This document shows, piece after piece, positions 1,337-23,892 of a stretch of 34,778 nucleotides of DNA (positions within the stretch are counted from its first letter, which is position 1; the number at the start of each line of letters is the position of its first letter). The notes beneath the pieces are model-generated. The model saw only the letters and a program-made list of their open reading frames with translations, did not search any database and had not been told where the DNA came from. The position numbers and the translations under genes are program-made. Source of the DNA: an uncultured Lachnospiraceae bacterium (GTDB lineage Bacteria; Bacillota; Clostridia; Lachnospirales; Lachnospiraceae). The stretch covers positions 1 to 34,778 of the forward strand of contig CANQME010000025.1 in NCBI GenBank assembly GCA_947624815.1, in the 5' to 3' direction.

Positions 1337-2377
1337 ATGAATCAGGTCACCCTTGGGAAAACAGGCATTACCGTGAACAAAAACGGCTTCGGCGCGCTGC
1401 CGATCCAGCGCATTTCCAAAGAGGACGCCGTTTATCTGCTGCGCAAGGCGTACGATCACGGCATCACGTATTTCGATACGGCGCGCGCCTATACGGACAG
1501 CGAGGAGAAGATTGGCCTCGCCTTCGGCGGCGGCGACCGCAGCCGCCTCTATATCGCGACCAAGACAACGGCTTCCACCGCGGACCAGTTCTGGAAGGAT
1601 CTGGAGACCAGCCTGCGGCTTCTGAAGACCGATTATATCGATGTTTACCAGTTCCATAATCCGTCGTTCTGCCCGAAGCCGGGCGGTGAGGACGGTCTTT
1701 TCGACGCCGCCTTAAAGGCGCAGCAGCAGGGCAAGATCCGGTTCATCGGAATCACCAACCACCGGCTCTCCGTGGCATCCGAAAGCATCGAGAGCGGCCT
1801 CTACGCCACGCTGCAGTTCCCCTTCAGCTATCTGGCCACGGAGAAGGACATCGCCATCGTGGACGCCTGCCGGGCCCACGATATGGGATTTATCGCCATG
1901 AAAGCGCTGTCCGGCGGCCTGATCACCAACTCCGCCGCCGCCTACGCCTACCTGGCCCAGTACGACAACGTCCTTCCCATCTGGGGCGTCCAGCGGGAAT
2001 CAGAGCTGGACGAATTCTTAAGCTATATCGACAATCCTCCGGCGATGTCGCAGGAATACAAGGCCGTCATCGACGCGGACCTGAAGCAGCTGGCAGGCGG
2101 CTTCTGCCGCGGCTGCGGCTACTGTATGCCGTGCCCCGCAGGGATCGAGATCAACAACTGCGCCAGAATGTCGCTTCTGCTGCGCCGCTCTCCCTCCGCA
2201 GGCCATCTCTCGCCGGCCGGCCAGGAGAAAATGATGAAGATCAAAGACTGTCTCCACTGCAACCAGTGCGCCGGCAAGTGTCCCTACGGTCTGAATACGC
2301 CGGAGCTTCTGGCACGCAACCTTAAGGATTACGAGGAAGTGCTGGCCGGAAAAGAGATGACGCCGACGAATTTCTAG
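1337..2377 (+). CDS. Aldo/keto reductase with C-terminal Fe-S cluster motifs
   Basis: A 346-residue oxidoreductase of the ferredoxin-like aldo/keto reductase group. The TIM-barrel tetrad is visible: D47 and Y52 in FDTARAY, K76 in IATKT and H107 in QFHNP. The C-terminal region adds cysteine motifs CRGCGYCMPC and CLHCNQCAGKC, consistent with one or two 4Fe-4S clusters, as in the family that couples the NAD(P)H-dependent barrel to Fe-S electron transfer. AGAAAGGAGT precedes the start. It follows the AraC-type gene closely. Its stop codon shares a CTAG with the stop of the converging 1364-residue polysaccharide protein, and no terminator separates them. The substrate is unknown. Confidence 0.9.
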   Translation: MNQVTLGKTGITVNKNGFGALPIQRISKEDAVYLLRKAYDHGITYFDTARAYTDSEEKIGLAFGGGDRSRLYIATKTTASTADQFWKDLETSLRLLKTDYIDVYQFHNPSFCPKPGGEDGLFDAALKAQQQGKIRFIGITNHRLSVASESIESGLYATLQFPFSYLATEKDIAIVDACRAHDMGFIAMKALSGGLITNSAAAYAYLAQYDNVLPIWGVQRESELDEFLSYIDNPPAMSQEYKAVIDADLKQLAGGFCRGCGYCMPCPAGIEINNCARMSLLLRRSPSAGHLSPAGQEKMMKIKDCLHCNQCAGKCPYGLNTPELLARNLKDYEEVLAGKEMTPTNF

Positions 2378-5300
2378 TCGGTTCCGGCTGTCGCAAAGTC
2401 CTCTTTAATGACGTTCCAGGCGGCGTCCATGCTGTAATATTCCCGCACGTATTCCTGACCCCTCTGGCTCAGCGCCTGACAGCTTTCCGGGCTCTGGTAG
2501 ATATCGGATACCGCCTCCGCGAACGCCTCCGCCTGATCCGCGATCACCATCACATCCTCTGCATGGGGGATTCCCTCCGCGCCGATGGATGTGGTGACCA
2601 CGGCGGCGCCGTTGTAAAGCGCCTCCACGACCTTTCCCTTAACGCCGGCGCCGTAGCGCAGCGGCACGACCACCAGTCTGGTCGTATCATAAAGCCGGGT
2701 CAGCTCCTCATCGCTGACAAATCCCTTAACCACGACTCCCGGCACCGTCTGTTCCAGCTCCCGGATCTCATCGGTCACCCGCGAGCCGGCCACGTAGAAT
2801 TTCGGCGGTTCGGCTCCCGTCTCTCTCATGCGGCTTACGATCATCGGATAGACCTCCTTCGCAAACCACAATACCGCGTCCGCATTCGGCGGATGAGCGA
2901 ACCCGCCGACGAAGAGGATCCCCTCCCGCCCGGCGAAGTCCTCGGGAATCTGATCCCTGAACTCGTCGTACACATACGCCACGATATCCTTCACCGGGAT
3001 GTTCTCATCCTCGGCCCGGACCGCGTCCCTCTCTACAAAGGACGGATAATAGGACATATCCACCTTGTAGAACAGCGACATTTCGATCCCCTTCCAGTAG
3101 TCGGCGGCCCTGCGGCGGTCCGGATCCATGGTCAGCGCATACTCCCGGCTCTCCCGCAGATAATGCAGGTCATGTCCGTAATAGATCAGCCGGATATCCG
3201 TATTCTCCCGCAGATAATCCACATACTTGATGGCGATATGGGGCCGGTTCAGGTACGCAATGTCGATGTCCTTCCCATGGTCGGAAAGCCAGCTCCAGAT
3301 GCCCGCCTCATACTCCGCCCCGGACAGGATCTCGACGCCCATCTGTTCCAGCGCCGTGGAATACGGCTCCTCATGAGCGAAATTATCTCCCAGGAACTTC
3401 ACCACGTAACCGTGCCGGAGGAACATCTTCAGATACTGGAACGTGGTCCTGGAGCCGGCATCCTTGTCAAACGTAGGTACATAATGGTCGATCACCAGGA
3501 TGACCGGCCTGCCCATGCTGCGCTCCCTGGCCCGGAACGGATCCGGATTCCCGGTGTTCTCGCACTGGTGCTTCAGCTCCTCCGCCCATTTCTCCTTAAG
3601 CTTCTCCGTATTCTCTGTCTGATACCGCTTCAGACCGCTCCCCTGAACGTCGGTCCCGTTGGAGATCCCTTCGTAATGGATCACCTTCGACAGCGGCTGG
3701 TATACGACCCGGTAACCGGCCTTTCTCACCTCGAACGCCAGATCGGAGTCTTCGCAGTAGGCAGGGGCGTACCGCTCGTCGAAGCCGCCGATCTGCCTCC
3801 ACAGCTCGCTCCGGATCAGGATCGCGGCGCCGGAGATATAGTCCACATCCTTTACATAGTTGTACTGAGGCTTGTCCGGATCGTCCAGACGGCCGTAGTT
3901 CCAGCCGGAGCCGTCGCTCCAGATGATGCCGCCCGCCTCCTGCAGCCGCCCGTCTGGATAGACCAGCTTGGAACCGGTCATGCCGATGGAATCGTCGGAG
4001 CGGATCAGACGGGCCAGGGCCGAAAGCCACCCCTCCGTCACCTGGGTATCATTGTTCAGGAACATGATATACCGGCCGCGGGCCTTTTGCGCGGCCTGAT
4101 TGCAGTTTTTAAGGAAGCCCAGATTCATCTCGTTTCGGCATACCACCGCGCCTTCGACGTAACGGCCGATGTGCTCCGTGGCGTCAGTGGATCTGTCGTC
4201 GGCGATAATGACTTCATAGGCCACGTCCTTCGTATGTTCCAGGATCGAGACAAGGCAGGCGTAAGTGTATCCGATCTGGTTGCAGACCGGAATCACAATG
4301 GATACCTCCGGCTGCTCTGCCGGCGAAAACACCAGCTTCCGGTGCTCCCGGTACGGATCGCCGATCTCGAAATCGCCGTCTCTTAGATTCTTTCCTTCCT
4401 CCGTCCTGTAGAACCGGTAAGAACGAATCGGATGCGTCAGGTATTCCTTCCGATAGCGGAGCCGCTTTCTTTCCGGCGACCCCTTCGGATATTTCGCGTT
4501 GAATTTCTCTCCCAGTCTGCGGCGAAGCTTGAAGATCAGCGCCTCGTGGCCGTTCAGATAGGTCAGGGTCTTTCCCATCTCGTCGATCTCATGGTGCAGA
4601 TCGCGGATCATGATCTCCAGATTCGTCACATGGTTGTCCGTCAGCCGCTTGATCTCCGTCATCTTGCGGATCGCAGCGCTCTGATCGTGGAGCTGGGCTT
4701 TCAGCCGCTCCTCATTCTCCCGGGAATGGGCGAGCTCCGTCTCCAGACGTCGCAGTTCCTCATCCATCTCCGTTAAATTCTTCGCAGACCGCGGCTTTAC
4801 CAGATAGTTCTCCAGATAGAGGACCTGATTCTCCCCATGGACATAATACTGGAAATTCCGCTCCATGGAATCATAAAGCGCTGCCGCCTCCGGCGTAATG
4901 CCGAACTTCTCAAGCCATTCAGAAACCGTCGCGCCGCAGTCCATCAGGCTCTTAAACTGCCGGTACGCATAGAACAGGATCCGGTAGCGGATATAGTCGA
5001 TCGGTACCGGGAAATCAAACACCCATTCGTAGTCCAGACAGTAATTGCCGTCGTCGGTCAGAAGCACATTCTCAAACAGCAGATCGATATTGGATACATG
5101 GAAGCAGGGTACGCCCCAGCCGGCGTCCGGTTTCTCCCCGGAAGCTTCGTCTGTGCCGGCCTGAGCCGCTTTCTGTCCCGGATCCGCCGGAATCGCCGCG
5201 GATCCCGCAAGCAGAGCCATCTCCTTCTCGCCGAATACCGCCGCGAACTCCTTCGTGGGCGCAAATGGTTCGATATCGCCCAGCTCCGCCGCCAGAAGAA

Positions 5301-6468
5301 CGTCGATGCTCTGCCGGATCAGCTCCACAGGAGCCTCGCCGTTCTGAATCTCATCGGCCAGCCTCGCCGCCAGCGTCCGGCCCGTCAGATACGGGAACGT
5401 GACCGCATCCCCGGCGGGATTCACCTTCCCGGGCAGATATTTCAGAAGCTCGTGCTGCGCGGACAGCGCCTCGTACATGGAGGTAAAATACGCGATATGC
5501 GCTTTCCCCTCCTCCGTCAGTGCGCTTTTCTCCACGCGGCGCGCGCTGCCGTCCGCTTCGCCGAGGATCATCGTCTTCAGCTGAAACTCCTCCCGGCGCG
5601 TCCGGTTATATTTCATATACTGAGGGCCGTTTGGCCGGATCGTACTGCTTCCGCGCCTCCAGACCGCCAGATAGGCGTTGGCGTACTGATCAAACCTGCC
5701 CTCCCTGACAACCTGATCGAAGGCCGCTCCCATATCGAAGAACGGATAAACCGGGAAATCGTACGCCGCGATCGTGTCGGTCAGATCCCCCTCCCGCGGC
5801 AGATACGCGTCGGAATAGATCGTCACCGGCAGCTTATAGTCCGGCATCGGGTAATAGAACTCCAGACTGCCGCTGTCTCCTCCGCCGGAAAGCCATCTGG
5901 TCAGCGAATCCTTCGACAGGCTGTGGACGTCCTTCGCCGCACCGGCCCAGTATTTGATCCCGAGGGGATTGCATACCGCCGCGATCAGTTCTCCGTCCGG
6001 CTTCAGAAGGGCCTTCGCCGCCTGGATCTGGGCTGCGCTCTCCTCCTCGCTCAGTTCGTCCTGCTCCAGATCGCCGACGATCACCACGTAATCGTATAGC
6101 CCCTTCGCCTGGGGAAGATACTCGGCCAGCGTTCCCTCCACGTAGCTGATATTCTGATATCCGTCCTGCCCGCTGTGGCGCAGGCGGTTGATCTCAAGAT
6201 TGGCCCAGGAGGGATCGATGACATCCACCCGGGATACCTTCCGGGCATAGAGCCCCGTCAGGGCGCCGAAATCCGATCCTACCTGAAGAAGCGAGCTCTC
6301 CCTGCGGAACGGATACCATTCCAGCAGATTCTCCCTCTGGGGAGAGAGCGCGTAGAGAAATTCCAGCTTAGGATTCGCGCCGAGGATGGCCTTGACGTCG
6401 GCGCCGTAGGTCTTGATCAGACCAAGCAGCCTGCGTTCCACTTCTGTTCGTTCTTTCTCTGGTTTCAT
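2374..6468 (-). CDS. Methyltransferase / kinase-like / coiled-coil / GT2 / GT4 fusion protein
   Basis: A 1364-residue multidomain protein, last gene of the operon. Residues about 55-180 look like a class I SAM methyltransferase (LLQVGSDFGALTGLYA, then YDYVVIVGDLEQ). Residues about 285-500 look kinase-like: a possible N-lobe lysine at K314, a catalytic-loop-like segment HVSNIDLLFENVLL (457-470, D462 and N467), and LDYEW (478-482) where a DFG motif would lie. Residues about 564-636 form a charged coiled coil. Residues about 720-935 are a GT2 domain (VSIVIPVCN, DD757-758, NND805-807, CEDSDLAF). Residues about 988-1355 are a GT4-like domain (GAGVKGKVVEALYNGAAVV near 1273-1291). The start has AAAGGAACATC before ATG and overlaps the wzt stop by 4 bases (ATGA). 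The methyltransferase-kinase-coiled-coil order recalls WbdD of E. coli O8/O9a. The glycosyltransferase assignments are firm; the kinase assignment is by motif only. A role in chain extension and termination is inferred. Confidence 0.85.
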   Translation of the reverse strand: MKPEKERTEVERRLLGLIKTYGADVKAILGANPKLEFLYALSPQRENLLEWYPFRRESSLLQVGSDFGALTGLYARKVSRVDVIDPSWANLEINRLRHSGQDGYQNISYVEGTLAEYLPQAKGLYDYVVIVGDLEQDELSEEESAAQIQAAKALLKPDGELIAAVCNPLGIKYWAGAAKDVHSLSKDSLTRWLSGGGDSGSLEFYYPMPDYKLPVTIYSDAYLPREGDLTDTIAAYDFPVYPFFDMGAAFDQVVREGRFDQYANAYLAVWRRGSSTIRPNGPQYMKYNRTRREEFQLKTMILGEADGSARRVEKSALTEEGKAHIAYFTSMYEALSAQHELLKYLPGKVNPAGDAVTFPYLTGRTLAARLADEIQNGEAPVELIRQSIDVLLAAELGDIEPFAPTKEFAAVFGEKEMALLAGSAAIPADPGQKAAQAGTDEASGEKPDAGWGVPCFHVSNIDLLFENVLLTDDGNYCLDYEWVFDFPVPIDYIRYRILFYAYRQFKSLMDCGATVSEWLEKFGITPEAAALYDSMERNFQYYVHGENQVLYLENYLVKPRSAKNLTEMDEELRRLETELAHSRENEERLKAQLHDQSAAIRKMTEIKRLTDNHVTNLEIMIRDLHHEIDEMGKTLTYLNGHEALIFKLRRRLGEKFNAKYPKGSPERKRLRYRKEYLTHPIRSYRFYRTEEGKNLRDGDFEIGDPYREHRKLVFSPAEQPEVSIVIPVCNQIGYTYACLVSILEHTKDVAYEVIIADDRSTDATEHIGRYVEGAVVCRNEMNLGFLKNCNQAAQKARGRYIMFLNNDTQVTEGWLSALARLIRSDDSIGMTGSKLVYPDGRLQEAGGIIWSDGSGWNYGRLDDPDKPQYNYVKDVDYISGAAILIRSELWRQIGGFDERYAPAYCEDSDLAFEVRKAGYRVVYQPLSKVIHYEGISNGTDVQGSGLKRYQTENTEKLKEKWAEELKHQCENTGNPDPFRARERSMGRPVILVIDHYVPTFDKDAGSRTTFQYLKMFLRHGYVVKFLGDNFAHEEPYSTALEQMGVEILSGAEYEAGIWSWLSDHGKDIDIAYLNRPHIAIKYVDYLRENTDIRLIYYGHDLHYLRESREYALTMDPDRRRAADYWKGIEMSLFYKVDMSYYPSFVERDAVRAEDENIPVKDIVAYVYDEFRDQIPEDFAGREGILFVGGFAHPPNADAVLWFAKEVYPMIVSRMRETGAEPPKFYVAGSRVTDEIRELEQTVPGVVVKGFVSDEELTRLYDTTRLVVVPLRYGAGVKGKVVEALYNGAAVVTTSIGAEGIPHAEDVMVIADQAEAFAEAVSDIYQSPESCQALSQRGQEYVREYYSMDAAWNVIKEDFATAGTD

Positions 6469-7877
6469 GATGTTCCTTTCGTATTGCCGGATTCTGTTTT
6501 GCCCGCAGCCTTCGCGGCTTCTTCTCTCTGCGCGGGCGGTTTCTTCTCCGCCGAGACCTCTGATTCCATATCATAGACCCCCACCGTGTTCTTGTTCGAG
6601 ATCACGGTCAGGCTCAGCACGTCATAGAGGCGGTGATAGACTACATGCTCTCCCAGCTCAAAGCCGGTACAGCTCATGCTCAGCAGGTATTCCCCTCCCT
6701 GCAGCGTCATCTTCTGTGTAAATGAGACCTCATATTCATCTCCGTCCTGCACCGGCCGTATGTCGGTTCCCTCGTACATCGTATTCGTGCCGGTCAGCTC
6801 GGTTCCCTTCTTATCCTTGATCGTATACGTGAAGATCGGCGTCCGGATCGGCGCGTGGAAACGGATCTTCTCGCGGATCGTAAACCGTTCGCCCTTCAGC
6901 AGCAGATTCGTCAGGTTCCCCCGTCCGTCGAACAGTCCCATGTCGTAGATCTCCGCCCGGCCGTCTCCGTACTCGGTACGGTTGGGATTGACGGCCAGAC
7001 TGTCCTTCATAAGCACGGGACGCGCCGTGTCTCCGCTTCCGCTCTCCTGTCCGCGGCCTCTTTCCCCGGACAGGCTCTCCGAACCGCCGCCGGCCGGATC
7101 CGCCGCTTTCCTCTCTTCGGCAAGCTCTGCCTCCAGCGACTCCATCTGATTCGCCAGGATCTTCTTATACAGATCCACCATATGACCGGCGGTTCCCTCG
7201 GCAATGAAGTTGCCTTTATTTAACAGTACGACCTTATCGCAGTACTTCAGAATGCTTCCCATATCATGGGTCACCATCAGGATCGTGGTTCCCTTCTTCC
7301 GGATCTCCTCCATACGCCGGTAGCACTTGGCCTGGAAGAACACGTCTCCCACCGACAGCGCCTCGTCCACGATCAGGATCTCCGGATCCACATTGATCGC
7401 CAGAGCGAACGCCAGCCGGACGAACATACCGCTTGAATAGGTTTTCACCGGCTGATTCACGAAATCGCCGATATCTGCGAAATCCAGAATATCCTGCAGC
7501 TTCGCGTCCATCTCCTTCCGGGAGAAGCCCATCATGCTCCCGTTCATATAGATGTTCTCGATGCCTGTGTAGTCCATATTAAAGCCGGCTCCCAGCTCCA
7601 GAAGCGCCGAGACCGTTCCGTTCACCGTCACCTCTCCGGAGGTAGGCGACAGAACGCCGGTAATGATCTTCAGAATCGTAGATTTGCCGGAGCCGTTGGT
7701 TCCGATGATTCCCACGGTCTGGCCCTTCTCCACGGAGAATGACAGGCCGTTTAGGGCATAGAATTTCCTGTGGTACTCCTTATGAAAGGGGTGCAGGGAT
7801 TCCTTCAGCCTGTCAATCGGCTTGTCATACAGCTTATAGATTTTTGTCACATCTTTTACGATGATGGCATTCTCCAT
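6465..7877 (-). CDS. wzt: Polysaccharide ABC exporter ATPase with C-terminal Wzt-type domain
   Basis: A 470-residue ATPase of the Wzt/TagH/RgpD type. Walker A is GTNGSGKS (59-66), the signature is YSSGMFVRLAFALAI and Walker B is EILIVDEALSVGD. After about residue 250 comes a low-complexity Glu/Gly/Ser linker and then a beta-rich domain (DMGLFDGRGNLTNLLLKGE onward), which matches the C-terminal carbohydrate-recognition domain of Wzt proteins that select a modified chain end. I chose the ATG at 7877 because TAGGAGGAACTTC precedes it; an upstream in-frame ATG at 7898 lies inside wzm. The gene follows wzm by 10 bases and overlaps the next gene by 4. It acts with Wzm at the inner face of the membrane to export an undecaprenyl-linked polysaccharide. 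Confidence 0.93.
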   Translation of the reverse strand: MENAIIVKDVTKIYKLYDKPIDRLKESLHPFHKEYHRKFYALNGLSFSVEKGQTVGIIGTNGSGKSTILKIITGVLSPTSGEVTVNGTVSALLELGAGFNMDYTGIENIYMNGSMMGFSRKEMDAKLQDILDFADIGDFVNQPVKTYSSGMFVRLAFALAINVDPEILIVDEALSVGDVFFQAKCYRRMEEIRKKGTTILMVTHDMGSILKYCDKVVLLNKGNFIAEGTAGHMVDLYKKILANQMESLEAELAEERKAADPAGGGSESLSGERGRGQESGSGDTARPVLMKDSLAVNPNRTEYGDGRAEIYDMGLFDGRGNLTNLLLKGERFTIREKIRFHAPIRTPIFTYTIKDKKGTELTGTNTMYEGTDIRPVQDGDEYEVSFTQKMTLQGGEYLLSMSCTGFELGEHVVYHRLYDVLSLTVISNKNTVGVYDMESEVSAEKKPPAQREEAAKAAGKTESGNTKGTS

Positions 7878-7887
7878 GAAGTTCCTC

Positions 7888-8700
7888 CTAAAGCACATCC
7901 GAGAAATGAGGCCGCAGCCGCTTGAACACCTTAAGCCCCGCCAGGAACAGTACGGCCGTAACCGCCCAGAAATAGACCGTCACAAGTGGCCGTTCCCAGA
8001 AGCCGCTGCCGGTCAGCATGCTGTCGCGGTATCCGGTGACCAGATACCAGACCGGATTCAGCTTCATAACCTGGTCCAGCCACGCCGGATGGTTCGCGAA
8101 CATGGCCGGATCCCACATGATCGGGGTCACCCACATCCAGACCTGCAGAAAAATGCCGACGATCTGCGCCATGTCCTTGAAAAATACGTTGACCGCGCTG
8201 GTGAAATACACGACTCCCAGTGAGAATACCGTAGCTGCGAACGAATAGTATGCGATCTGCAGCCAGCTGATCCTGGGGAACGTCCCATACAGCAGAAACA
8301 CCGCCACCATGATCAGCACGAAGATCACATGCACCATCAGGCAGGAGATCACCTTGATGACCGGCAGGATCTCCACCTGGAAAACCACTTTCTTCACCAG
8401 GTAATTATACTCCTGCAGGCACCCGGTTCCCGCGTTCAGCGCCTCGCTGACAAAAAACCACGGTACGATACCGGGGATCAGCCACTGCACATAGGGATAT
8501 CCAGGAACCGGAGGCGCGTTCTTAAACCCCATCTGGAAGACGAAGAAATAAATCAGCACCGTAACCACCGGCTGGATGAACATCCAGATCACGCCGAAAT
8601 AGGACCCTACAAAGCGCTTCCGGAAATCGGATTTCGCCAGGTCCCAGATCAGCTTCCGCCGTCTCACCATTTCTTTTGTCAGTGTGACCAGATAATTCAT
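7888..8700 (-). CDS. wzm: Polysaccharide ABC exporter permease (ABC-2 type)
   Basis: A 270-residue integral membrane protein of the Wzm/TagG/RgpC family. It begins with the amphipathic MNYLVTLTKEMVRRRKLIWD and the family motif SDFRKRFVGSYFG, followed by about six hydrophobic segments. The segments around MFIQPVVTVLIYFFVF and VQWLIPGIVPWFFVSEAL are typical. The ATG at 8700 is preferred because GGGAGAGGCATCG lies before it; an alternative ATG at 8724 would add eight residues but has weaker spacing. It pairs with the adjacent wzt to form the export channel for a cytoplasmically polymerised glycan. Confidence 0.93.
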   Translation of the reverse strand: MNYLVTLTKEMVRRRKLIWDLAKSDFRKRFVGSYFGVIWMFIQPVVTVLIYFFVFQMGFKNAPPVPGYPYVQWLIPGIVPWFFVSEALNAGTGCLQEYNYLVKKVVFQVEILPVIKVISCLMVHVIFVLIMVAVFLLYGTFPRISWLQIAYYSFAATVFSLGVVYFTSAVNVFFKDMAQIVGIFLQVWMWVTPIMWDPAMFANHPAWLDQVMKLNPVWYLVTGYRDSMLTGSGFWERPLVTVYFWAVTAVLFLAGLKVFKRLRPHFSDVL

Positions 8701-8751
8701 CGATGCCTCTCCCGCTGTCTCCATCTGTGATCCATTCCGGCCATAGCCTCT

Positions 8752-8789
8752 CGCCGGACATAAGCATTCTCCGCAAAGGCAGTCCGGCG
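8752..8789. repeat. Inverted repeat between rfbC and wzm
   Basis: Arms CGCCGGAC (8752-8759) and GTCCGGCG (8782-8789) enclose a 22-nt loop in the 93-base gap between rfbC and wzm. There is no T-run, so it is more likely a message-stabilising or processing hairpin than a terminator. Function is not shown. Confidence 0.35.
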
Positions 8790-8793
8790 CGAT

Positions 8794-9348
8794 TTAGAAT
8801 TTGAATGTATCCGCGAGGCCGCCCCACTTCGTATCTCTCTCGGAAAAGATCAGCTCCATCCCCTCCTCGACGGGCCACTTGATGCCGATCTCCGGATCAT
8901 TCCAGATCAGACCGCCTTCGTCTCCGGGATGATAGAAATCTGTGACCTTGTAGGCAAACTCCGCCTCGTCCGACAGCACCAGAAAGCCGTGGGCGAAGCC
9001 CGGCGATACATAGAACTGCTTCTTGTTCTCCGCCGACAGCTCCACGCCGAACCACTGGCCGTAGGTCGGGGATTTGGCCCGCAAATCGACCGCCACGTCG
9101 AACACCCGGCCCCGGATTGCCCGGACAAGCTTCCCCTGCGGAAACTGCTTCTGGTAATGAAGCCCGCGCAGCACGCCCTTCACGGACATGGACTGGTTGT
9201 CCTGAACGAACACCATATCAAGCCCCTCGGCTTCAAAATCCCTCTGATTATATGTCTCCACAAAATATCCCCTGGCGTCCTCATGAACCTCCGGTTCGAT
9301 CACGTACAGGCCCTCGATGTGGCAGGGAGTCACTTTTATTTTACCCAT
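8794..9348 (-). CDS. rfbC: dTDP-4-dehydrorhamnose 3,5-epimerase
   Basis: A 184-residue RmlC/RfbC enzyme, the usual family length. It converts dTDP-4-keto-6-deoxyglucose to dTDP-4-keto-L-rhamnose in the dTDP-L-rhamnose pathway. Family motifs are clear: EDARGYFVETYNQRDF, GVLRGLHYQ with the catalytic-region histidine, KLVRAIRGRVFDVAVDLR, FYVSPGFAHGFLVLSD and GLIWNDPEIGIKWP. The ATG at 9348 has AAAGGAGATGGATCT before it; the open frame continues 36 codons upstream without a better start. It is the only rhamnose-pathway gene in the window, so rmlA, rmlB and rmlD must lie elsewhere. Its place in the operon supports a rhamnose-containing product. Confidence 0.96.
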   Translation of the reverse strand: MGKIKVTPCHIEGLYVIEPEVHEDARGYFVETYNQRDFEAEGLDMVFVQDNQSMSVKGVLRGLHYQKQFPQGKLVRAIRGRVFDVAVDLRAKSPTYGQWFGVELSAENKKQFYVSPGFAHGFLVLSDEAEFAYKVTDFYHPGDEGGLIWNDPEIGIKWPVEEGMELIFSERDTKWGGLADTFKF

Positions 9349-9401
9349 AGATCCATCTCCTTTTCGGCTTTCTTCTGAATTCTGCCGGCTGTGTATTCCG
9401 C

Positions 9402-9422
9402 GCGGCTCTCCGTCAGAGCCGC
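9402..9422. repeat. Hairpin spanning the stop of the DUF2142 gene
   Basis: A perfect 8-bp inverted repeat, GCGGCTCT at 9402-9409 and AGAGCCGC at 9415-9422, with a 5-nt loop. It straddles the TGA at 9413-9415 of the upstream gene in the operon. No T-run follows on the minus strand, so read-through into rfbC is expected. Confidence 0.4.
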
Positions 9423-11083
9423 ATACACACGACGCTGAACATACGCAGTACCACATATAGGTTGGCGCAGCACATCAAATACAATATACTACGGTTTCCA
9501 TCCTTTGTCAAAACCAACCGGTCATTTTTGCACGCCATGAGAAATACCGGCAGAAACGGCAGGAAATACCTGCCCTGCACGCCTTCGATCACGGCGGAGG
9601 TCCGCGGCGTCCAGGCGATCAGCATGGAGAGCATGATCGCCGCCGTGCAGACCGCGCACACGGTAAAGATCCACCATCTCCGCCCGCCGGTAATGACCAG
9701 GTTTTCACCCGGTACGCGAAACGCCAGCAGCAGAAGTCCCGCCGTATAAAACACGATCAGGAAATACGGCACGTTCAGAACCGGATCCAGATTCCCCAGC
9801 TCCGATCCGATCATGGTCAGATGGTATTCGTCCAGATGATGAAGCAGCGTATTGTAAAACATCTGCAGCAGAAGCACGGGCCGGTGCAGAAGCAGCGTCA
9901 GGCTGAATCCTTCCTCGCCGCTGACGGGAAGCACGGTACTTGCAGCGGAGGCATAGGCGTTTACCACGCCGGCGTTTACCAGCGCCATGACCGCGGCCCA
10001 CGCTCCCGCGACCAGAACCGCCGACGCCGCCCATTTCCCCCAGCCGCCGAACTTCCGGACCGGGATCAGCAGGCACAGACCCATCATCGCCGCGTAGACC
10101 ATCTTGCAGGGACCGCCCGCCGCCATCAGAAGCGCCAGAAGCGCCACGTCCCAAAGCCGGACCCGCTCCCTGGCGTAGGCCAGATCCAGGCATACCGCCG
10201 TAAACAGGAACATGCAGGCCAGGATCATCACGTCGTAGGAAAAGGACGCCGACAGATGCAGCGTCATCGGAAGAAGCGCCACGCCGAAAAGCACCTCCCT
10301 GCCGAACGGGAGCCGTCTAAGCGCCAGCCATGTCATGCCAACGAAAAACAGCAGATTCATGAAACGCCCCATATAGGCAAGCCAGATGCTGTTCATGTGG
10401 AACAGCCTCGCCAGCACGATCCCTACGGTCTGCGGCAGATAGGCCGCAGGCGTCGTGTCCACCGTATAGAACCGGGTCTCGGCCAGCAGGCCGTCCCCTC
10501 CGCCCGCCGCGGCCAGCTGCTTCTGCTGCGGAGTCTCCGCTCCGGTCAGAAGATTGTGGACCAGACGGTAGGTATCCTCCTTAAGGGTCTGCCCGGCGGC
10601 CGTCGCTTCCGTACTGCCGTCCGCGGCCTTCCAGTAGGCGCCGGAGGTATCAATCACGTAATCTCCTTCGGAATCTTCAAAGACCCAGTCCTGCACGCGG
10701 ACCAGGGTACGGCCTTCGTCGGACCGGACCGGCTGTCCCAGGACCCGGCTGGAAAGCTCGTACGCCGTAAGGTAGTGGCTGATCTCGTCGGGAGCCGACA
10801 TCGGCGGAAACACAAACAGGTACAGAAGGCCCAGAAGCAGTCCCGCCGCCGGATAGATCTGAACCAGACTCAGCCGACGCCCGCGTATCTGGCCCTGCAA
10901 CAGCCAGCCAAAAAGGATCGCGGCGCCAAGCGCCGGCACCCACAGCGCCAGATACCATCCGGCAAGCCATGCGTCCCCCGCAGCCTCCGCCCCTGCGCGT
11001 ACATCGAACAGATGCCAGAGGCCAAGTACGGCCAGCGCCCCGGTTGTGATCCCGATCATCGCCAATCCATGTCTGTCTTTCAT
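9413..11083 (-). CDS. DUF2142 membrane protein, probable GT-C-type transferase
   Basis: A 556-residue integral membrane protein with about a dozen hydrophobic segments. It carries the DUF2142-type first extracytoplasmic loop motif PPMSAPDEISHYLTAYELSS, where an acidic pair follows the first helices as in GT-C glycosyltransferases. The ATG at 11083 is preferred because GGAGGGACTG precedes it and it overlaps the upstream stop by one base (TGATG); a GTG at 11095 is possible. Proteins of this kind transfer sugars from undecaprenyl-phosphate donors on the outer face of the membrane. Downstream of a DUF2304 protein and a DPM-like GT2, it fits the position of streptococcal GacL. The donor sugar is unknown and the catalytic role is inferred. 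Confidence 0.8.
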   Translation of the reverse strand: MKDRHGLAMIGITTGALAVLGLWHLFDVRAGAEAAGDAWLAGWYLALWVPALGAAILFGWLLQGQIRGRRLSLVQIYPAAGLLLGLLYLFVFPPMSAPDEISHYLTAYELSSRVLGQPVRSDEGRTLVRVQDWVFEDSEGDYVIDTSGAYWKAADGSTEATAAGQTLKEDTYRLVHNLLTGAETPQQKQLAAAGGGDGLLAETRFYTVDTTPAAYLPQTVGIVLARLFHMNSIWLAYMGRFMNLLFFVGMTWLALRRLPFGREVLFGVALLPMTLHLSASFSYDVMILACMFLFTAVCLDLAYARERVRLWDVALLALLMAAGGPCKMVYAAMMGLCLLIPVRKFGGWGKWAASAVLVAGAWAAVMALVNAGVVNAYASAASTVLPVSGEEGFSLTLLLHRPVLLLQMFYNTLLHHLDEYHLTMIGSELGNLDPVLNVPYFLIVFYTAGLLLLAFRVPGENLVITGGRRWWIFTVCAVCTAAIMLSMLIAWTPRTSAVIEGVQGRYFLPFLPVFLMACKNDRLVLTKDGNRSILYLMCCANLYVVLRMFSVVCMRL

Positions 11084-11490
11084 CAGTCCCTCCACGCCTG
11101 CTTTGTCTCTTCCGTCTTCTCATCCAGAAGCTTCTGAAGCTGCGCCTTCTCTTCCTGATTCTTCTTCTCGTCAAGCGCCATCTTCTGCACCAGCTCCCGG
11201 ATCTTCGTCTCCATCTGGGAAATGTGGATCGTCATGTAGAACACCTTTACGATCAGCACGAAGATCGCAAACAGGAACAGAAAGTTCGCCGTAGAATAGA
11301 TCCCGAGGCAGTGCGCCGCGAAATCCGCCGCCGCCGGAAACAGGCTGAAAACCACCAGTACCAGCGCCAGCACGATCCAGAATACCGCGCTCTCGATCTG
11401 CATCTTCGACTGGCGGATCCTGCGCATCATCAGAAACAGGGTTCCTACCGACACAAGGATCAGCGCGACCCGCAGCGTCATCGTCATCAT
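11083..11490 (-). CDS. DUF2304 small membrane protein (GacJ-like)
   Basis: A 135-residue protein with three hydrophobic segments (LRVALILVSVGTLFLMM, VFWIVLALVLVVFSLF and FLFLFAIFVLIVKVFYM), then a charged coiled-coil tail ending in KTEETKQAWRD. This matches DUF2304. The family includes GacJ, a small membrane protein that stimulates the undecaprenyl-phosphate-GlcNAc synthase GacI in group A Streptococcus. The ATG at 11490 has AGGGAGCGGTT before it; two further ATGs follow within nine bases, so the exact start is uncertain by up to three codons. The stop overlaps the next start. Its likely partner is the DPM-like GT2 at 13971-14678, which is inference from family and context. Confidence 0.82.
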   Translation of the reverse strand: MMTMTLRVALILVSVGTLFLMMRRIRQSKMQIESAVFWIVLALVLVVFSLFPAAADFAAHCLGIYSTANFLFLFAIFVLIVKVFYMTIHISQMETKIRELVQKMALDEKKNQEEKAQLQKLLDEKTEETKQAWRD

Positions 11491-11541
11491 AACCGCTCCC
11501 TCACTTTCCGTATTCTGTCCGGGCAACCGGACCCGCGGCGC

Positions 11542-13920: not shown

Positions 13921-13987
13921 GCAGTGCGGCGCTCGGGAACCTGCGGTTCCCTCGCTCGCGGGCGTTCGCCCTATGAATTCGCACTGC
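13921..13987. repeat. Nested palindromes between GT2 and flippase genes
   Basis: Outer arms GCAGTGCG (13921-13928) and CGCACTGC (13980-13987) enclose two further hairpins: GGGAACC/GGTTCCC (13935-13941 and 13945-13951) and GGGCG/CGCCC (13960-13964 and 13967-13971). The right outer arm lies inside the 3' end of the GT2 gene. The array fills most of the 112-base spacer, in an operon where other spacers are short or absent. It resembles a REP-like intergenic repeat or a processing structure. Other copies cannot be searched for here. Confidence 0.5.
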
Positions 13988-14678
13988 CCGTTGTTTGGCG
14001 AAATGTCTGTATCAAAAAAATAGACAAAAGCATCCGGATCATATAGCCGGCGGCTACGGTTGGCTTCAGGTAGCTTTCGCCGCCCTGCCGCGGAGCGATC
14101 ACTACGGGGACCTCAGCGACCTTCGCGCCCTGCTTCAGCAGATAGGAGATCGTATCCGGCTCCGGGCCGTAGTTCAGCTTCAGGGCAAACTCCCGGATCA
14201 TACTCCGGTTGAACATCCGCATACCGGAGGTGGGATCCGCAACCTTCACCCCGGTCGTCAGACGGATCGCCGCCGAAAGGATCCTGCTGCCGATCATCCG
14301 CATGGAAGCCCCCTTATGGCCTTCCACGAAACGGCTTCCGATCACGATGTCGCAGCCCTCGTTCATCTTCCGGAACATGGGCTCGATATACTCCGGCCTG
14401 TGCTGCCCGTCCCCGTCAAACTGGATCGCGCAGTCGTACCCTTCCAGGTACGCATACTTCATCCCGGCTTGAAAGCAGCCGGCCAGCCCCAGATTCACCG
14501 GCAGATCCAGCAGGTTGTAGCCGTTCTCCCGGCAGATCTGCGCCGTGCGGTCCGTCGAACCGTCGTTGACCACAAGATAGTCGAACTGCGGACATATCCG
14601 GATCAGCTCGTCCACCACCGCGCGGATATTCGCCTCTTCATTATACGCCGGTATTATGATCAGTAATCTGTTCTCCAT
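13971..14678 (-). CDS. DPM-like GT2, probable undecaprenyl-phosphate sugar synthase (GacI-like)
   Basis: A 235-residue GT2 enzyme of the dolichyl-phosphate-mannose synthase type. The N-terminus LLIIIPAYNEEANIRAVVDE, the VVNDGSTDRTA motif, the DGDGQH metal site, and VIGSRFVEGHKG followed by DPTSGMRMFNR are all diagnostic. Such enzymes move a sugar from a nucleotide donor to a polyprenyl phosphate on the cytoplasmic face. The C-terminal TVAAGYMIRMLLSIFLIQTF is hydrophobic, but two full C-terminal membrane helices as in GacI are not evident. With the DUF2304 protein, flippase and GT-C-like protein downstream it makes a plausible side-chain module. It sits 6 bases downstream of the first gene of the operon. 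Confidence 0.9.
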   Translation of the reverse strand: MENRLLIIIPAYNEEANIRAVVDELIRICPQFDYLVVNDGSTDRTAQICRENGYNLLDLPVNLGLAGCFQAGMKYAYLEGYDCAIQFDGDGQHRPEYIEPMFRKMNEGCDIVIGSRFVEGHKGASMRMIGSRILSAAIRLTTGVKVADPTSGMRMFNRSMIREFALKLNYGPEPDTISYLLKQGAKVAEVPVVIAPRQGGESYLKPTVAAGYMIRMLLSIFLIQTFRQTTGSANS

Positions 14679-15642: not shown

Positions 15643-15712
15643 TCACATATGGCATTTTTCGCATAAATGTGGTAAATTAAGAAAGGTACACCAATCACAG
15701 GAGGAATTGCGT

Positions 15713-17251
15713 ATGCGCAAAATATACCGCAGAACCTTAACCTTGCTGCTGACCGCCGCGATGTTGTCTGGTTATACATTGCAGGCGTCCGCATCCGGAC
15801 CGCTGGGAAATGCGGTATCGGAACCGGAACCACAGCCGGAAGTCTCCGCGGAAACCCATTCGTCCGGTCCGATGTCAGGGCCCATGTCCGGACCCATGTC
15901 CGGTCCGATGTCAGGAAGCAGCAGCTCCCAGGCTTCAGGGATCCCCAAGCCGGAGGCGACCTCCGGACCTCTTGGTCCGCTTAACACCTCCCCCGCGCCG
16001 GAAGAGACCGAACAGCCTGCCGCTGAACAGCCGGCTCCGCAGCCGGCGAACAACCTGGCCTCTCTGGCCGAGGACGTTCAGGAGATCATCGGCTCGACCT
16101 TGGTCAGTCTGACGATGCTTCAGCCGGATCTGACCTGGACTCCGGTCATCTATACGCCCTCCGGCGTTATGACGACCAATAACCAGGGCTTCATGACCAT
16201 GAGCCTTTACATCCATTCCCTGCCCGGCGACATCCAGTATCGGACCTATACTTCCTCGACCGGCTGGACCAACTGGTCGATCAACGGCGACCATACCGCA
16301 TGGAACCAAGGCGTTCTGGTAGAGGCCGTGCAGATCCGCCTGGAATCCATCCCGGCAGATTATTATGACATCTATTACGCCGCCACCTTAAGCGACGGCA
16401 CCGTCTGCGACTGGGCGCGCAACGGAGCGACCAGCGGAACCATGGCGTCCGGCAAGTATATCGCCGGCATGCAGATCGCCCTGTATCCGAAGGGCACCGG
16501 ACCTGCAGCCAACACGGCCAAAAGCGTCAGCGCTCCGGCCTACGAGGGCATCAGCTTTAACGGCGGCGCCCCCACTTATTCCAGCGGAACCGGCCAGCCC
16601 TTCACCGGATGGTTATGGTATGACAACACGACCCGCTACTATTTCGTGGACGGCAACGCCGTGACCGGCTGGCAGTCGATTGACGGCTACCGTTACTACT
16701 TTGAAGCGGACGGCAGGCTTGTGACCGATCTGGAGCCGTACTTAAACTCGGGCGGTCCGTTCTATCTCCGCATCAACAAGCAGATGAACTGCATCACCGT
16801 TTACATTCAGGATGAAGAAGGGAATTACACGATTCCCTATAAGGCGTTCCGCTGCTCGACCGGCGACGACACGCCCATCGGTACCTTCCGCACGCCGGAG
16901 AAGTACCGCTGGCAGCTGATGGTGACCGGAGAATACTGCCAGTTCTGTACGCGGCTGGGAAGCGGACTGCATATCCTGATGCACTCCGTCATTTACGAAA
17001 CGAACAATCCGTACACGCTGAAGAATACGACCTACAATTATCTGGGCTACAGCCGGTCCCACGGATGCATCCGTCTTCTGACGAGAGACGCCAGGTGGAT
17101 CTATGAGCACTGCCCGCTGGGCACCACGGTCAACGTATACGAGTCCAGTATCCCCGGACCGTTCGACCGCCCCGGCATTCCGGAATTCATCACGGATTCC
17201 CAGACATGGGATCCCACCGATGTGGAAGTCCCGGAGAACGGACTTCAGTAA
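15713..17251 (+). CDS. Secreted L,D-transpeptidase with cell-wall-binding repeats
   Basis: A 512-residue exported cell-wall enzyme. A signal peptide (MRKIYRRTLTLLLTAAMLSG) ends near ASA at residues 26-28. It is followed by a Pro/Ser/Glu-rich spacer holding four SGPM repeats (51-66). Residues about 160-260 resemble two ChW-type repeats. Residues about 296-340 are choline-binding-like (FTGWLWYDNTTRYYFVDG, TGWQSIDGYRYYFEADG). The YkuD domain fills about 350-478 with catalytic SHGCIRLL (C452). Such enzymes form 3-3 peptidoglycan cross-links or attach molecules to peptide stems. The ATG at 15713 is chosen because AGGAGG lies 8 bases upstream; the TTG at 15707 is too close. It is divergent from the polysaccharide operon, suggesting a linked envelope role. 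No strong plus-strand promoter was recognised. Confidence 0.93.
   Translation: MRKIYRRTLTLLLTAAMLSGYTLQASASGPLGNAVSEPEPQPEVSAETHSSGPMSGPMSGPMSGPMSGSSSSQASGIPKPEATSGPLGPLNTSPAPEETEQPAAEQPAPQPANNLASLAEDVQEIIGSTLVSLTMLQPDLTWTPVIYTPSGVMTTNNQGFMTMSLYIHSLPGDIQYRTYTSSTGWTNWSINGDHTAWNQGVLVEAVQIRLESIPADYYDIYYAATLSDGTVCDWARNGATSGTMASGKYIAGMQIALYPKGTGPAANTAKSVSAPAYEGISFNGGAPTYSSGTGQPFTGWLWYDNTTRYYFVDGNAVTGWQSIDGYRYYFEADGRLVTDLEPYLNSGGPFYLRINKQMNCITVYIQDEEGNYTIPYKAFRCSTGDDTPIGTFRTPEKYRWQLMVTGEYCQFCTRLGSGLHILMHSVIYETNNPYTLKNTTYNYLGYSRSHGCIRLLTRDARWIYEHCPLGTTVNVYESSIPGPFDRPGIPEFITDSQTWDPTDVEVPENGLQ
15863..15910 (+). repeat. Four 12-bp tandem repeats encoding SGPM
   Basis: Four in-frame copies of a 12-bp unit encode Ser-Gly-Pro-Met. 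Synonymous differences between units show that the peptide is conserved rather than the DNA being freshly duplicated. It lies in the spacer between signal peptide and wall-binding region and could vary in copy number. Confidence 0.85.
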
Positions 17252-17322: not shown

Positions 17323-18201
17323 TTATGTCGTTCTGAAATACTCCTCATAGGGCGTATCCGGATCCACAACGAGCCCGCCGTGGATCGTGGGCGCTTTCGC
17401 CGGAGTCATATACTCGCCGTATTCCGCGCGAAGCCTGCCGTCGTACCCCGCCGGAACCGGGATCTGCCGGTTTTCAAAGGGCATGCGCACCGCCTCCGCA
17501 AACCACTCGCGTCTCCACTCCGGATGGTCCGTGTGCCGCAGAAACACGATATCGCAGACATATTCCGTATTCTTCCCGGCATAGCGCGTACAGATCCTCT
17601 CATAGAACCGATACGCCGTCTTCATCGGGATATGCAGAAGTTTTCCCAGTTTATGGAGCAGATATCCCGCCGCCGTCCTGGTTTCATAATAATCGAACCG
17701 GTACCAGGTATAAAGGGTCATCCAGACGATATCGAGCTCCTTCATCCACAGCTTCCGCCGGAAGGTTCCGTCCGGCATCGCGTCCAGCGGGAACAGATCC
17801 ACGAAGATCCCGCAGTTGTACCCGGCCTTTCGGTCCTCCTCGCTGCAGCCGGTCGTCCGGCTGTCGCGGAGCTGGGCGTGGGCCCGCAGGTAGTTCTCCT
17901 CCGTATACGCCGTCTGCAGCTTCAGATGGGGCGGAAGCTTCGCGGGCGCAGCCTGCACGAAGCGCTCATAGTCTTCGCGCAGCATGACCAGATCGATGTC
18001 GTCGTCCCAGGGAATATATCCGCCGTCCCGAACGGCGCCGATCAGCGTCCCGCTGTCGGCAAAATACCGGATCCCGTATTTGGCGCAGATCCGGTCGATC
18101 TCATCCAACATGGCCAGCTGAACCGCCCAGACGCGCTTGGTCCGGGCGGTAACACGATATTCGTTTCGGATCTCTTCCCTGTAAAAATCGCGGTTCTCCA
18201 T
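17323..18201 (-). CDS. LicD-family phospho-substituent transferase
   Basis: A 292-residue LicD/fukutin-type protein. The signature DSGTLIGAVRDGGYIPWDDD, continuing IDL, holds the nucleotidyltransferase-fold acidic residues, and NCGIFVDLFPLDAMPDG follows. Family members transfer phosphocholine, or other phospho-alcohols, from a CDP-activated donor to a glycan. The start has GGGAGGAATAG before it and abuts the stop of the upstream flippase gene, so the two are one operon. The LicC-CobD-like fusion gene, 2.8 kb away on the other strand, could supply the donor. The family is secure; the donor is inferred. Confidence 0.92.
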   Translation of the reverse strand: MENRDFYREEIRNEYRVTARTKRVWAVQLAMLDEIDRICAKYGIRYFADSGTLIGAVRDGGYIPWDDDIDLVMLREDYERFVQAAPAKLPPHLKLQTAYTEENYLRAHAQLRDSRTTGCSEEDRKAGYNCGIFVDLFPLDAMPDGTFRRKLWMKELDIVWMTLYTWYRFDYYETRTAAGYLLHKLGKLLHIPMKTAYRFYERICTRYAGKNTEYVCDIVFLRHTDHPEWRREWFAEAVRMPFENRQIPVPAGYDGRLRAEYGEYMTPAKAPTIHGGLVVDPDTPYEEYFRTT

Positions 18202-20937: not shown

Positions 20938-21024
20938 ACTCCGTACGGCAGGCAGCCGGGCGCGGTGCAGAAACGGCGCCGGTTCCGTTCGATACGCAAT
21001 GACCAAACGATAAGGAGAACCGAT

Positions 21025-22848
21025 ATGCAGGCAATCATTCTGGCTGCGGGCATGGGGAAACGCCTGAAGCAGCTGACGCAGAACAATACAAAATGTATGG
21101 TAAAGGTAAACGGAGTCCCTCTGATCAACCGGACCCTGAAACAGCTGGAGGCCCTCTGCCTTACCAGGATCGTTATCGTCACCGGCTACGAAGGGCAGCG
21201 GCTGAGAGATCACATCGACAGTCTCGGCGTCCGGACGCCTGTCGTCTATGTGGGCAATCCGATCTACGATAAGACCAACAACATCTATTCCCTCTATCTG
21301 GCCAGAGACTATCTCCTTCAGGAGGATACGCTTCTTCTGGAATCGGACATCATTTTCGAGGATTCGGTGCTGCGCTGCCTGGCGGAGGATCCCAGGGACA
21401 GCCTGGCCCTGGTAGCCAGATACGAGTCCTGGATGGACGGAACCTGCGTGCGCCTGTCGGAGCAGGACGACATCGAGGCGGTCATTCCCGGAAGCAAGTT
21501 CCGGTTCTCCGAAGCCGACTCCTACTTTAAGACCGTCAATCTCTACAAGTTCGGCCGGGACTTTTCCCGCCATTACTATGTGCCCTTCCTGGAAGCCTAT
21601 ATCCAGGCCCTGGGGAACAACGAATACTACGAGCAGGTCCTGAAGGTGCTGGTGGCTCTTGACAATCCCGGCATCAAAGGCAAACGCCTCGACGAGAACC
21701 AGCGCTGGTACGAGATCGACGATATTCAGGATCTGGACATCGCCGAATCCATGTTTGCTCCCGAAGGAGACCGCGTCCGCCTGCTGTCCCGCCGCTACGG
21801 CGGCTATTGGCGTTATCCGCAGCTGGTGGATTTCTGCTATCTCGTCAACAGCTATTATCCCCCGCGAAAGCTTCTGGACGAAATGAAAGCCAATTTCGAC
21901 GCGCTGGCCTGCCAGTATCCCTCCGGCATGTACGTCAATTCCCTGCTTGCCGCCCGGAATTTCTCCCTGCGTCCCGACCAGATCCTGGTGGGCAACGGAG
22001 CCGCGGAGCTGATCCGCTCGGTTCTGGGAACCCTAAGCGGGAAGCTGGGCGTGATACGGCCGACCTTCGAGGAATACTGCAGCCGCTATCCGGCCGAAGA
22101 TCTCGTGGTCTATTATCCCGGCGGCGACTGCTTCGCCTACGGCGCGGAGGATCTGATCCATTATTTTGAGGATAAGAAAATCCGCAATCTGGTCCTGGTC
22201 AACCCGGACAATCCCTCCGGCAATTATCTGTGCCGCAGGGATATGGAACGTCTGATCCGCTGGACCGGCGAGCGCGGCATTACGCTGATCGCGGACGAGT
22301 CCTTTGTTGATTTTGCGGACGAGGAGAACGCCTCGCTGATGGACGAAGCGCTCCTGGACCAGAATCCCCATCTGGTCGTGATCAAAAGCATCTCCAAATC
22401 CTACGGGATTCCCGGTCTGCGCCTGGGCGTGGCCGCCAGCGGCAATTCCGGCCTGATCGGACGTCTGAAGAAGGATGTGGCGATCTGGAATATTAATTCT
22501 TTCGGGGAATTCTATCTGCAGATAGAAGAGAAATACAAAAAAGACTATCTCCGGTCCCTGACCCTGGTCCGGGCGGAACGGGCCCGTTTTGCGCAGCAGC
22601 TTGCGGAAATTCCCGGCCTGCGCGTCATTCCTTCCCAGGCAAACTACCTGATGGTAGAGCTTACGGCGCCGGCCGGCGCTTCGAAGCTGGCCGAACGGCT
22701 GCTGAACGGGTATCACATTTTAATCAAGGATCTGTCCGCCAAGGCCGGCGTCGGCGAGCGGTTTATCCGTCTCGCCGTGCGGAACCGGGAAGACGACGAC
22801 AGACTGATCGCCGCGCTTCGGGAGACCCTGACGGGCGATCTGTTGTAA
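21025..22848 (+). CDS. LicC-like nucleotidyltransferase fused to CobD-like PLP enzyme
   Basis: A 607-residue two-domain cytoplasmic enzyme. Residues 1 to about 245 are a phosphocholine-cytidylyltransferase (LicC-like) domain: QAIILAAGMGKRLKQLTQ, NNIYSLYLA (85-93), ESDIIF, and WYEIDDIQDLDIAES near the end. Residues about 255-607 are a fold-type I PLP enzyme with GNGAAELIRS (323-332), NPDNPSGN (393-400), ADESFVDF (423-430), and SISKSYGIPGLRLG (455-468) with the PLP lysine K458. The C-terminal half resembles CobD (threonine-phosphate decarboxylase) and HisC. TAAGGAGAACCGAT precedes the ATG at 21025. A CobD-like domain could decarboxylate a phospho-amino acid to a phospho-amino alcohol, which the first domain would activate with CTP for LicD. 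An aminotransferase role, as in the PntC-type aminoethylphosphonate enzymes, is the alternative. Confidence 0.88.
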   Translation: MQAIILAAGMGKRLKQLTQNNTKCMVKVNGVPLINRTLKQLEALCLTRIVIVTGYEGQRLRDHIDSLGVRTPVVYVGNPIYDKTNNIYSLYLARDYLLQEDTLLLESDIIFEDSVLRCLAEDPRDSLALVARYESWMDGTCVRLSEQDDIEAVIPGSKFRFSEADSYFKTVNLYKFGRDFSRHYYVPFLEAYIQALGNNEYYEQVLKVLVALDNPGIKGKRLDENQRWYEIDDIQDLDIAESMFAPEGDRVRLLSRRYGGYWRYPQLVDFCYLVNSYYPPRKLLDEMKANFDALACQYPSGMYVNSLLAARNFSLRPDQILVGNGAAELIRSVLGTLSGKLGVIRPTFEEYCSRYPAEDLVVYYPGGDCFAYGAEDLIHYFEDKKIRNLVLVNPDNPSGNYLCRRDMERLIRWTGERGITLIADESFVDFADEENASLMDEALLDQNPHLVVIKSISKSYGIPGLRLGVAASGNSGLIGRLKKDVAIWNINSFGEFYLQIEEKYKKDYLRSLTLVRAERARFAQQLAEIPGLRVIPSQANYLMVELTAPAGASKLAERLLNGYHILIKDLSAKAGVGERFIRLAVRNREDDDRLIAALRETLTGDLL

Positions 22849-23842: not shown

Positions 23843-23892
23843 GGAACGACCTCCTGCTGCTTCAATTCACCAAAACCGCCCCGATGCGGCTC

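Follow-up and report, generated by a model that had tools for sequence, protein, structure and literature searches.

How does a Gram-positive gut bacterium that builds a surface sugar chain bring that chain to a stop? The question is raised by a 34,778-nucleotide stretch of DNA from an uncultured Lachnospiraceae bacterium (GenBank assembly GCA_947624815.1, contig CANQME010000025.1, positions 1 to 34,778, forward strand; hereafter the window), in which a single gene (2374..6468, minus strand) encodes a 1364-residue protein composed of a methyltransferase, an APH-fold kinase, a coiled coil, and two glycosyltransferase (GT) modules, GT2 and GT4. This protein probably builds the chain itself and then stops it by adding phosphate and a methyl group. 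In the best explanation, to which we assign a probability of about 0.72, it is a Gram-positive member of the methyltransferase-kinase terminators typified by Klebsiella pneumoniae ORF6^O7, fused to a two-module polymerase, and the system combines extension, methyl-phosphate capping, spacing by the coiled coil, and export gated by the Wzt_C domain of an adjacent ABC exporter.

Five domains in one protein and their conserved residues

The methyltransferase domain spans residues 1–274 (5647..6468; like the gene, all its domains lie on the minus strand) and carries the conserved positions R45, G64, G68, N167, and PxPDY (207–211). The kinase domain, with an aminoglycoside/choline-kinase-like fold, occupies residues 280–560 (4789..5631) and includes a catalytic loop, D462-x4-N467, and a presumed metal-site motif, D479-Y-E481-W482 (together 5023..5085). 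A coiled-coil helix covers residues 562–639 (4552..4785), as judged by DSSP on the structural model, a heptad test, and the spacing between kinase and GT2. The GT2 domain (residues 720–934; 3667..4311) matches Pfam Glyco_tranf_2_3 and Glycos_transf_2 (E 1.4e-22), and the C-terminal half of the GT4 domain (residues 1183–1325; 2494..2922) matches Glyco_trans_1_4 (E 1.1e-20). In the same Pfam scan the methyltransferase gave only a weak match (E 0.0082) and the kinase domain none; structure prediction returned both folds with high confidence. An initial annotation, made from the sequence alone, had placed these five domains in one protein, and Pfam and the structural model bear it out. Neither outcome that would have spoken against it, a missing kinase fold in residues 285–500 or a missing S-adenosylmethionine (SAM) pocket in the first 200, was observed.

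The catalytic positions are strongly conserved. Kinase residues D462, N467, D479, E481, and W482 are present in all 41 aligned sequences and lie in the D462/N467 and DYEW motifs singled out by that annotation, and K314, R291, and H324 are each kept in 40 of 41 (the kinase alignment itself has 40 rows and omits one locus, L079, which is included in the 41-row residue count). Across 40 methyltransferase sequences, L61, G159, N167, G176, Y205, and P207 are invariant, R45 is found in 39 of the 39 aligned there, and G64 and G68 in 38.

Relation to ORF6^O7 and WbdD

The nearest published counterpart is ORF6^O7, described in 2024 (PMC11231755; for this and the other cited systems, our statements follow the accessible parts of the sources). 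Like the window protein, it joins an N-terminal methyltransferase, an APH/AmiN-like kinase, a coiled coil, and two C-terminal GTs in one polypeptide, shares its gene cluster with wzm, wzt, and rml, and has its catalytic Asp at the same location, by alignment to a presumed orthologue. On a mimic of the rhamnose repeat, ORF6^O7 adds phosphate and methyl groups at the terminal O3, as demonstrated by nuclear magnetic resonance (NMR); a D441A mutation abolishes activity, and its C-terminal half comprises two dTDP-rhamnose GTs (PMC11231755). Orthologues are reported from alpha- and gammaproteobacteria and cyanobacteria, with an ORF6 homologue in one archaeon (PMC11231755). Because this single-polypeptide plan was already published, the novelty claimed for a terminator–polymerase fusion falls away. 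ORF6^O7 is distinguished by an immunoglobulin (Ig)-like carbohydrate-binding module (CBM) that follows its kinase and precedes its coiled coil, and by having GT2 modules at both GT positions, whereas the window protein lacks the CBM, pairs GT2 with GT4, and comes from a Gram-positive host.

The family assignment was made through a 1457-residue protein that tblastn of plasmids recovered from plasmid pCC1524 of Pseudomonas asturiensis, where it is encoded directly behind ABC permease and ATPase genes and carries two GT2 domains. Its Y28, Y66, G91, G93, E112, and Y158 bear the residue numbers published for the ORF6^O7 SAM site, and its D443 is offset by 2 from the catalytic D441; from these numbers and the domain order, it is taken as an ORF6^O7 orthologue. 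The Firmicutes methyltransferase profile aligned to this protein with an hhalign probability of 99.9 (E 4.7e-34), and the Firmicutes kinase profile with 94.2 (E 1.1e-7) and the catalytic residues in register. By hmmsearch, two gammaproteobacterial homologues, from P. asturiensis and Citrobacter braakii, scored 138.9 and 137.5 bits against the methyltransferase profile. Both share identical residues at 20 of the 35 methyltransferase columns and 12 of the 23 kinase columns that are kept in at least 85% of Firmicutes rows. Three features of the ORF6^O7 type, a homologous methyltransferase, an APH/AmiN-like kinase with a catalytic Asp, and a coiled coil, are present in the window protein.

The initial annotation had called the protein WbdD-like, which is right for its working plan and terminator role and wrong for its family, as the kinase belongs to a different sequence family with ORF6^O7 as nearest relative. 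Descent from a WbdD-like ancestor with the same kinase would account for the identical methyltransferase–kinase–coiled coil order and for the Foldseek result of a 640-residue model, whose top match is WbdD 4azt (E 2.3e-9), with four further WbdD entries among the best 50 matches listed. That top match is a loose, two-domain one (template modeling scores 0.22/0.31, root-mean-square deviation 17.9). For the kinase-only model, WbdD is absent from the best 50 matches listed, which by itself excludes nothing; the APH-type matches there are interspersed with a small number of eukaryotic protein kinases, AAK1 among them (E 2.6e-4). In profile comparisons, the kinase profile against E. coli WbdD reached an hhalign probability of 0.2 with zero WbdD kinase columns aligned, its best hmmsearch match (−1.2 bits) fell outside the WbdD kinase, and the methyltransferase profile aligned over 75 SAM-core columns only (probability 68.5). 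The motifs differ as well, HxDxxxxN and DFG in WbdD versus N-x-D-x4-N and DYEW in the window family. E. coli O9a WbdD (4AZS) is likewise encoded beside wzt and wzm, but its kinase is of the eukaryotic type, it has no fused GTs, and it works with a separate polymerase, WbdA (PMC3482155). We therefore regard true WbdD homology as very improbable.

Profile searches with the kinase returned nothing significant in the PDB (best E 0.18, a glycosyl hydrolase; weaker matches included a corramycin phosphotransferase at 0.36 and JAK1 at ~1), and only one of 40 kinase members matched Pfam APH (E 0.0049). Such results, together with a different residue in place of the kinase lysine in P. asturiensis, could fit a dead domain, or a structural or acceptor-binding scaffold, with capping by methylation alone or none at all. 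This is improbable given the five residues invariant in 41 of 41 sequences, K314 in 40 of 41, and the requirement for the equivalent Asp in ORF6^O7.

Exporter linkage and distribution

The ATG of the terminator gene overlaps the stop codon of the upstream gene for Wzt, an ABC exporter ATPase with a C-terminal Wzt_C domain (6465..7898, minus strand; Pfam ABC_tran E 2.9e-24, Wzt_C E 2.1e-41). On the same strand lie the ABC-2 exporter permease Wzm (7888..8724; ABC2_membrane E 3.7e-14) and, three genes upstream of the terminator gene, the dTDP-4-dehydrorhamnose 3,5-epimerase RmlC (8794..9456; TIGR01221, 252.4 bits against a cut-off of 155.75). As rmlD occurs twice elsewhere in the same genome, dTDP-rhamnose is likely available (rmlA and rmlB were not searched for), and rmlC nearby with rmlD elsewhere makes a rhamnan-type glycan plausible.

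This neighborhood recurs. A methyltransferase scan of a genome collection yielded at least 594 stretches, at least 522 of them confirmed, and the best 80 loci were studied. Among the 72 loci with at least 4 kb upstream (8 were dropped for want of room), Wzt with Wzt_C lies within 6 kb upstream in 71, a window-like Wzm in 59, and rmlC in 33; with a 3.5 kb limit, Wzm is found in 49 of 70 loci. In a sample of 60 genomes from the window's GTDB family, Lachnospiraceae, which includes the window's own genome, 28 match the kinase profile, one of them weakly (G005, E 4.5e-5), and a hand count that omits the weak one places Wzt_C within 5 kb in 25 of 27 kinase genomes. Wzt_C matches in these 60 genomes with E < 1e-34 stand beside the kinase in 25 of 26 cases and weaker ones in 0 of 19 (Fisher p 8e-12), with the 1e-34 threshold chosen post hoc and close relatives not independent. 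The Wzt carbohydrate-binding domains of characterized systems bind the modified chain end (PMC9445017).

The best 80 loci come mostly from Lachnospiraceae, with Paenibacillus, Clostridium, Schinkia, and others. Lacrimispora xylanisolvens and [Clostridium] aerotolerans are two of the species that carry the genes. In 78 of the 80, the methyltransferase has a kinase fused to it or alongside: 29 fused, 43 next to it, 4 overlapping, and 2 in which the methyltransferase open reading frame (ORF) was missed in ORF picking. The exceptions are one locus that lacks a kinase (L119) and one that ends at a contig edge (L100). In a tree built from 105 kinase domains, of which 44 are fused to a methyltransferase and 61 are not, methyltransferase fusion is gained or lost 13 times or more, and GT2 fusion 5 times or more. 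The tree was built quickly, and stars mark 36 of its 102 inner branches; if only those branches are counted, the minimum drops to 3 changes for the fused-with-GT group and to 5 for the fused-without-GT group. Such recurrent joining and parting is an argument for the two enzymes working together. Fifteen fused proteins in the best 80 loci lack these GTs and, at 631–786 residues, are about the size of WbdD. New here are the wide occurrence in Lachnospiraceae, the absence of the O7 CBM, the GT2 plus GT4 of the window's clade, and a methyltransferase that is often a separate upstream gene.

Two broader counts were also made. A single 640-residue query (E ≤ 0.001) matched 214 of 397 genomes, a figure that may include SAM-core-only matches, and the kinase profile count is preferred. 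A phylum-wide count with the combined profile (346 of 398 genomes) was set aside, most of the listed matches covering the SAM core only (profile positions ~43–160). Outside the Firmicutes, methyltransferase and kinase genes (8001–8849 of locus L137 and the next ORF) lie behind Wzm/Wzt in a metagenome-assembled genome labelled Methanomassiliicoccaceae archaeon UBA472, where transfer or mis-binning could have placed them. The C. braakii plasmid pF217-3, typed conjugative, carries an O-antigen-like terminator cluster (L171, 1279–12568) with rmlB, A, C, and D, ABC permease and ATPase genes, GTs, and a 649-residue methyltransferase-kinase.

Candidate mechanism, its product, and the wider glycan cluster

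The analysis establishes the domains, their folds, the conserved catalytic residues, the kinship with the ORF6^O7 type, and the association with Wzt_C; for the sugar and substrate, the product, the ruler function, and the export check, we infer the following course as the most likely. The C-terminal GT2 and GT4 would extend a lipid-linked glycan, likely of rhamnose, on the cytoplasmic side, while the coiled coil would keep the two N-terminal enzymes a set distance away from the GTs. With D462 acting as its catalytic base, the kinase would phosphorylate the sugar at the non-reducing end; methylation of that phosphate by the methyltransferase would stop growth. Wzt_C of the adjacent exporter would then read the cap, and capped chains alone would be admitted to Wzm/Wzt.

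The terminator of Klebsiella O12 WbbB is a Kdo transferase, giving a Kdo cap, and not a methyltransferase-kinase. WbbB resembles the window protein in uniting polymerase, coiled-coil ruler, and terminator in one polypeptide (PMC11231755). Across 59 GT2-fused proteins of the window family, DYEW and the start of GT2 are separated by 219–237 residues in 52 (full range 172–293); the spacing is nearly constant, and no heptad-stepped spacing was seen by eye in the sorted list.

Instead of a methylated phosphate, the end residue of the chain might carry a 2,3-cyclic phosphate or a methyl group on one of its own hydroxyls. Two precedents point that way. The rhamnose-rich, ABC-exported S-layer glycan of C. 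difficile Ox247 ends in 2,3-cyclophosphoryl-rhamnose (PMC6254364), which by analogy would be the main rival for the product. In the Firmicutes, G. stearothermophilus WsaE combines an N-terminal methyltransferase with two rhamnosyltransferase domains, sits in a poly-rhamnan cluster with wzm-wzt upstream, and makes a 2-O-methyl cap; the accessible part of its report describes no kinase, a distinction by description, not sequence (PMC2943079). These alternatives are unlikely, since the window methyltransferase is of the ORF6^O7 kind by profile and the ORF6^O7 product is a methyl phosphate on rhamnose O3. The idea that the C. difficile cyclic phosphate is an alkali artefact of methyl phosphate was dropped, as the cyclic form is present in the native proteinase K glycopeptide (PMC6254364). 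In open-licence PubMed Central, covered mostly at title and abstract level, reports of chain-end methyl phosphate were found only for Gram-negative O antigens; we found none of such a cap in a Gram-positive, the C. difficile cyclic phosphate being nearest, and no description of the Gram-positive branch of the terminator family.

Besides the post hoc threshold noted above, several observations weigh against methyl-phosphate capping by an ORF6^O7-type fusion. The hmmsearch homology of the kinase to the ORF6^O7 type is far weaker than that of the methyltransferase, at 30.3 bits in P. asturiensis and 6.6 in Citrobacter. K314 corresponds to H359 in P. asturiensis and to K360 or R361 in C. braakii, depending on the alignment; H324 is kept in neither homologue in one alignment and lies opposite a P. 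asturiensis His in two others; and D479 becomes E464 in Citrobacter. ORF6^O7 orthology runs through matching residue numbers and domain order, not the ORF6^O7 sequence, MN173773.1. The Ig-like CBM is absent, the model having no strand longer than two residues from 545 to 562 and helix from 562, directly behind the kinase, although this module lies outside the features listed as common to all ORF6^O7 orthologues and is not defining (PMC11231755). Two of the 27 kinase genomes lack a nearby Wzt_C (on another contig in G034, none in G010), as does the contig of a second kinase copy in G018. A constant coil length fits a structural spacer as well as a one-length ruler. For Clostridia glycans we found a single reported phosphate cap, a cyclic and unmethylated one (PMC6254364), and the literature yielded no enzyme assay for the Gram-positive branch.

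Further glycan genes lie elsewhere in the window. A DUF2142 membrane protein, a DUF2304 protein, and a short GT2 that we label dolichol-phosphate-mannose-synthase-like (9413–11526 and 13971–14678, minus strand) recur near the terminator in many of 40 relatives, which suggests an added side-chain glycosylation step. An NTP-transferase fused to a CobD/HisC-like pyridoxal-phosphate enzyme (20965–22848, plus strand; best NCBIfam match CobD, E 3.9e-51, below cut-off) lies ~2.8 kb from a LicD gene (17323–18201, minus strand); the fusion might supply a CDP-activated aminoalcohol for LicD to attach to a glycan. In the same region as LicD, a YkuD L,D-transpeptidase with a choline-binding repeat (15707–17251, plus strand) may dock on a LicD-decorated glycan. 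A GT8 glycosyltransferase adjoining a UDP-galactopyranose mutase (22862–24990, minus strand) may indicate galactofuranose in the same or a second glycan.

At even odds, in our estimate, Gram-positive gut Lachnospiraceae commonly cap their surface glycans with methyl phosphate: in up to nearly half of them, a terminator that is split, fused, or joined to the polymerase is matched to a Wzt_C exporter and yields glycans of set length, the near-constant coil serving as a fixed ruler. If so, the chemistry of Klebsiella and E. coli O antigens would also decide how long chains grow, and their export, in Gram-positive commensals of the gut. The split and fused forms that occur naturally, paired with one group of Wzt_C domains, would then offer a system in which to test the cap as an export ticket outside the Gram-negatives.
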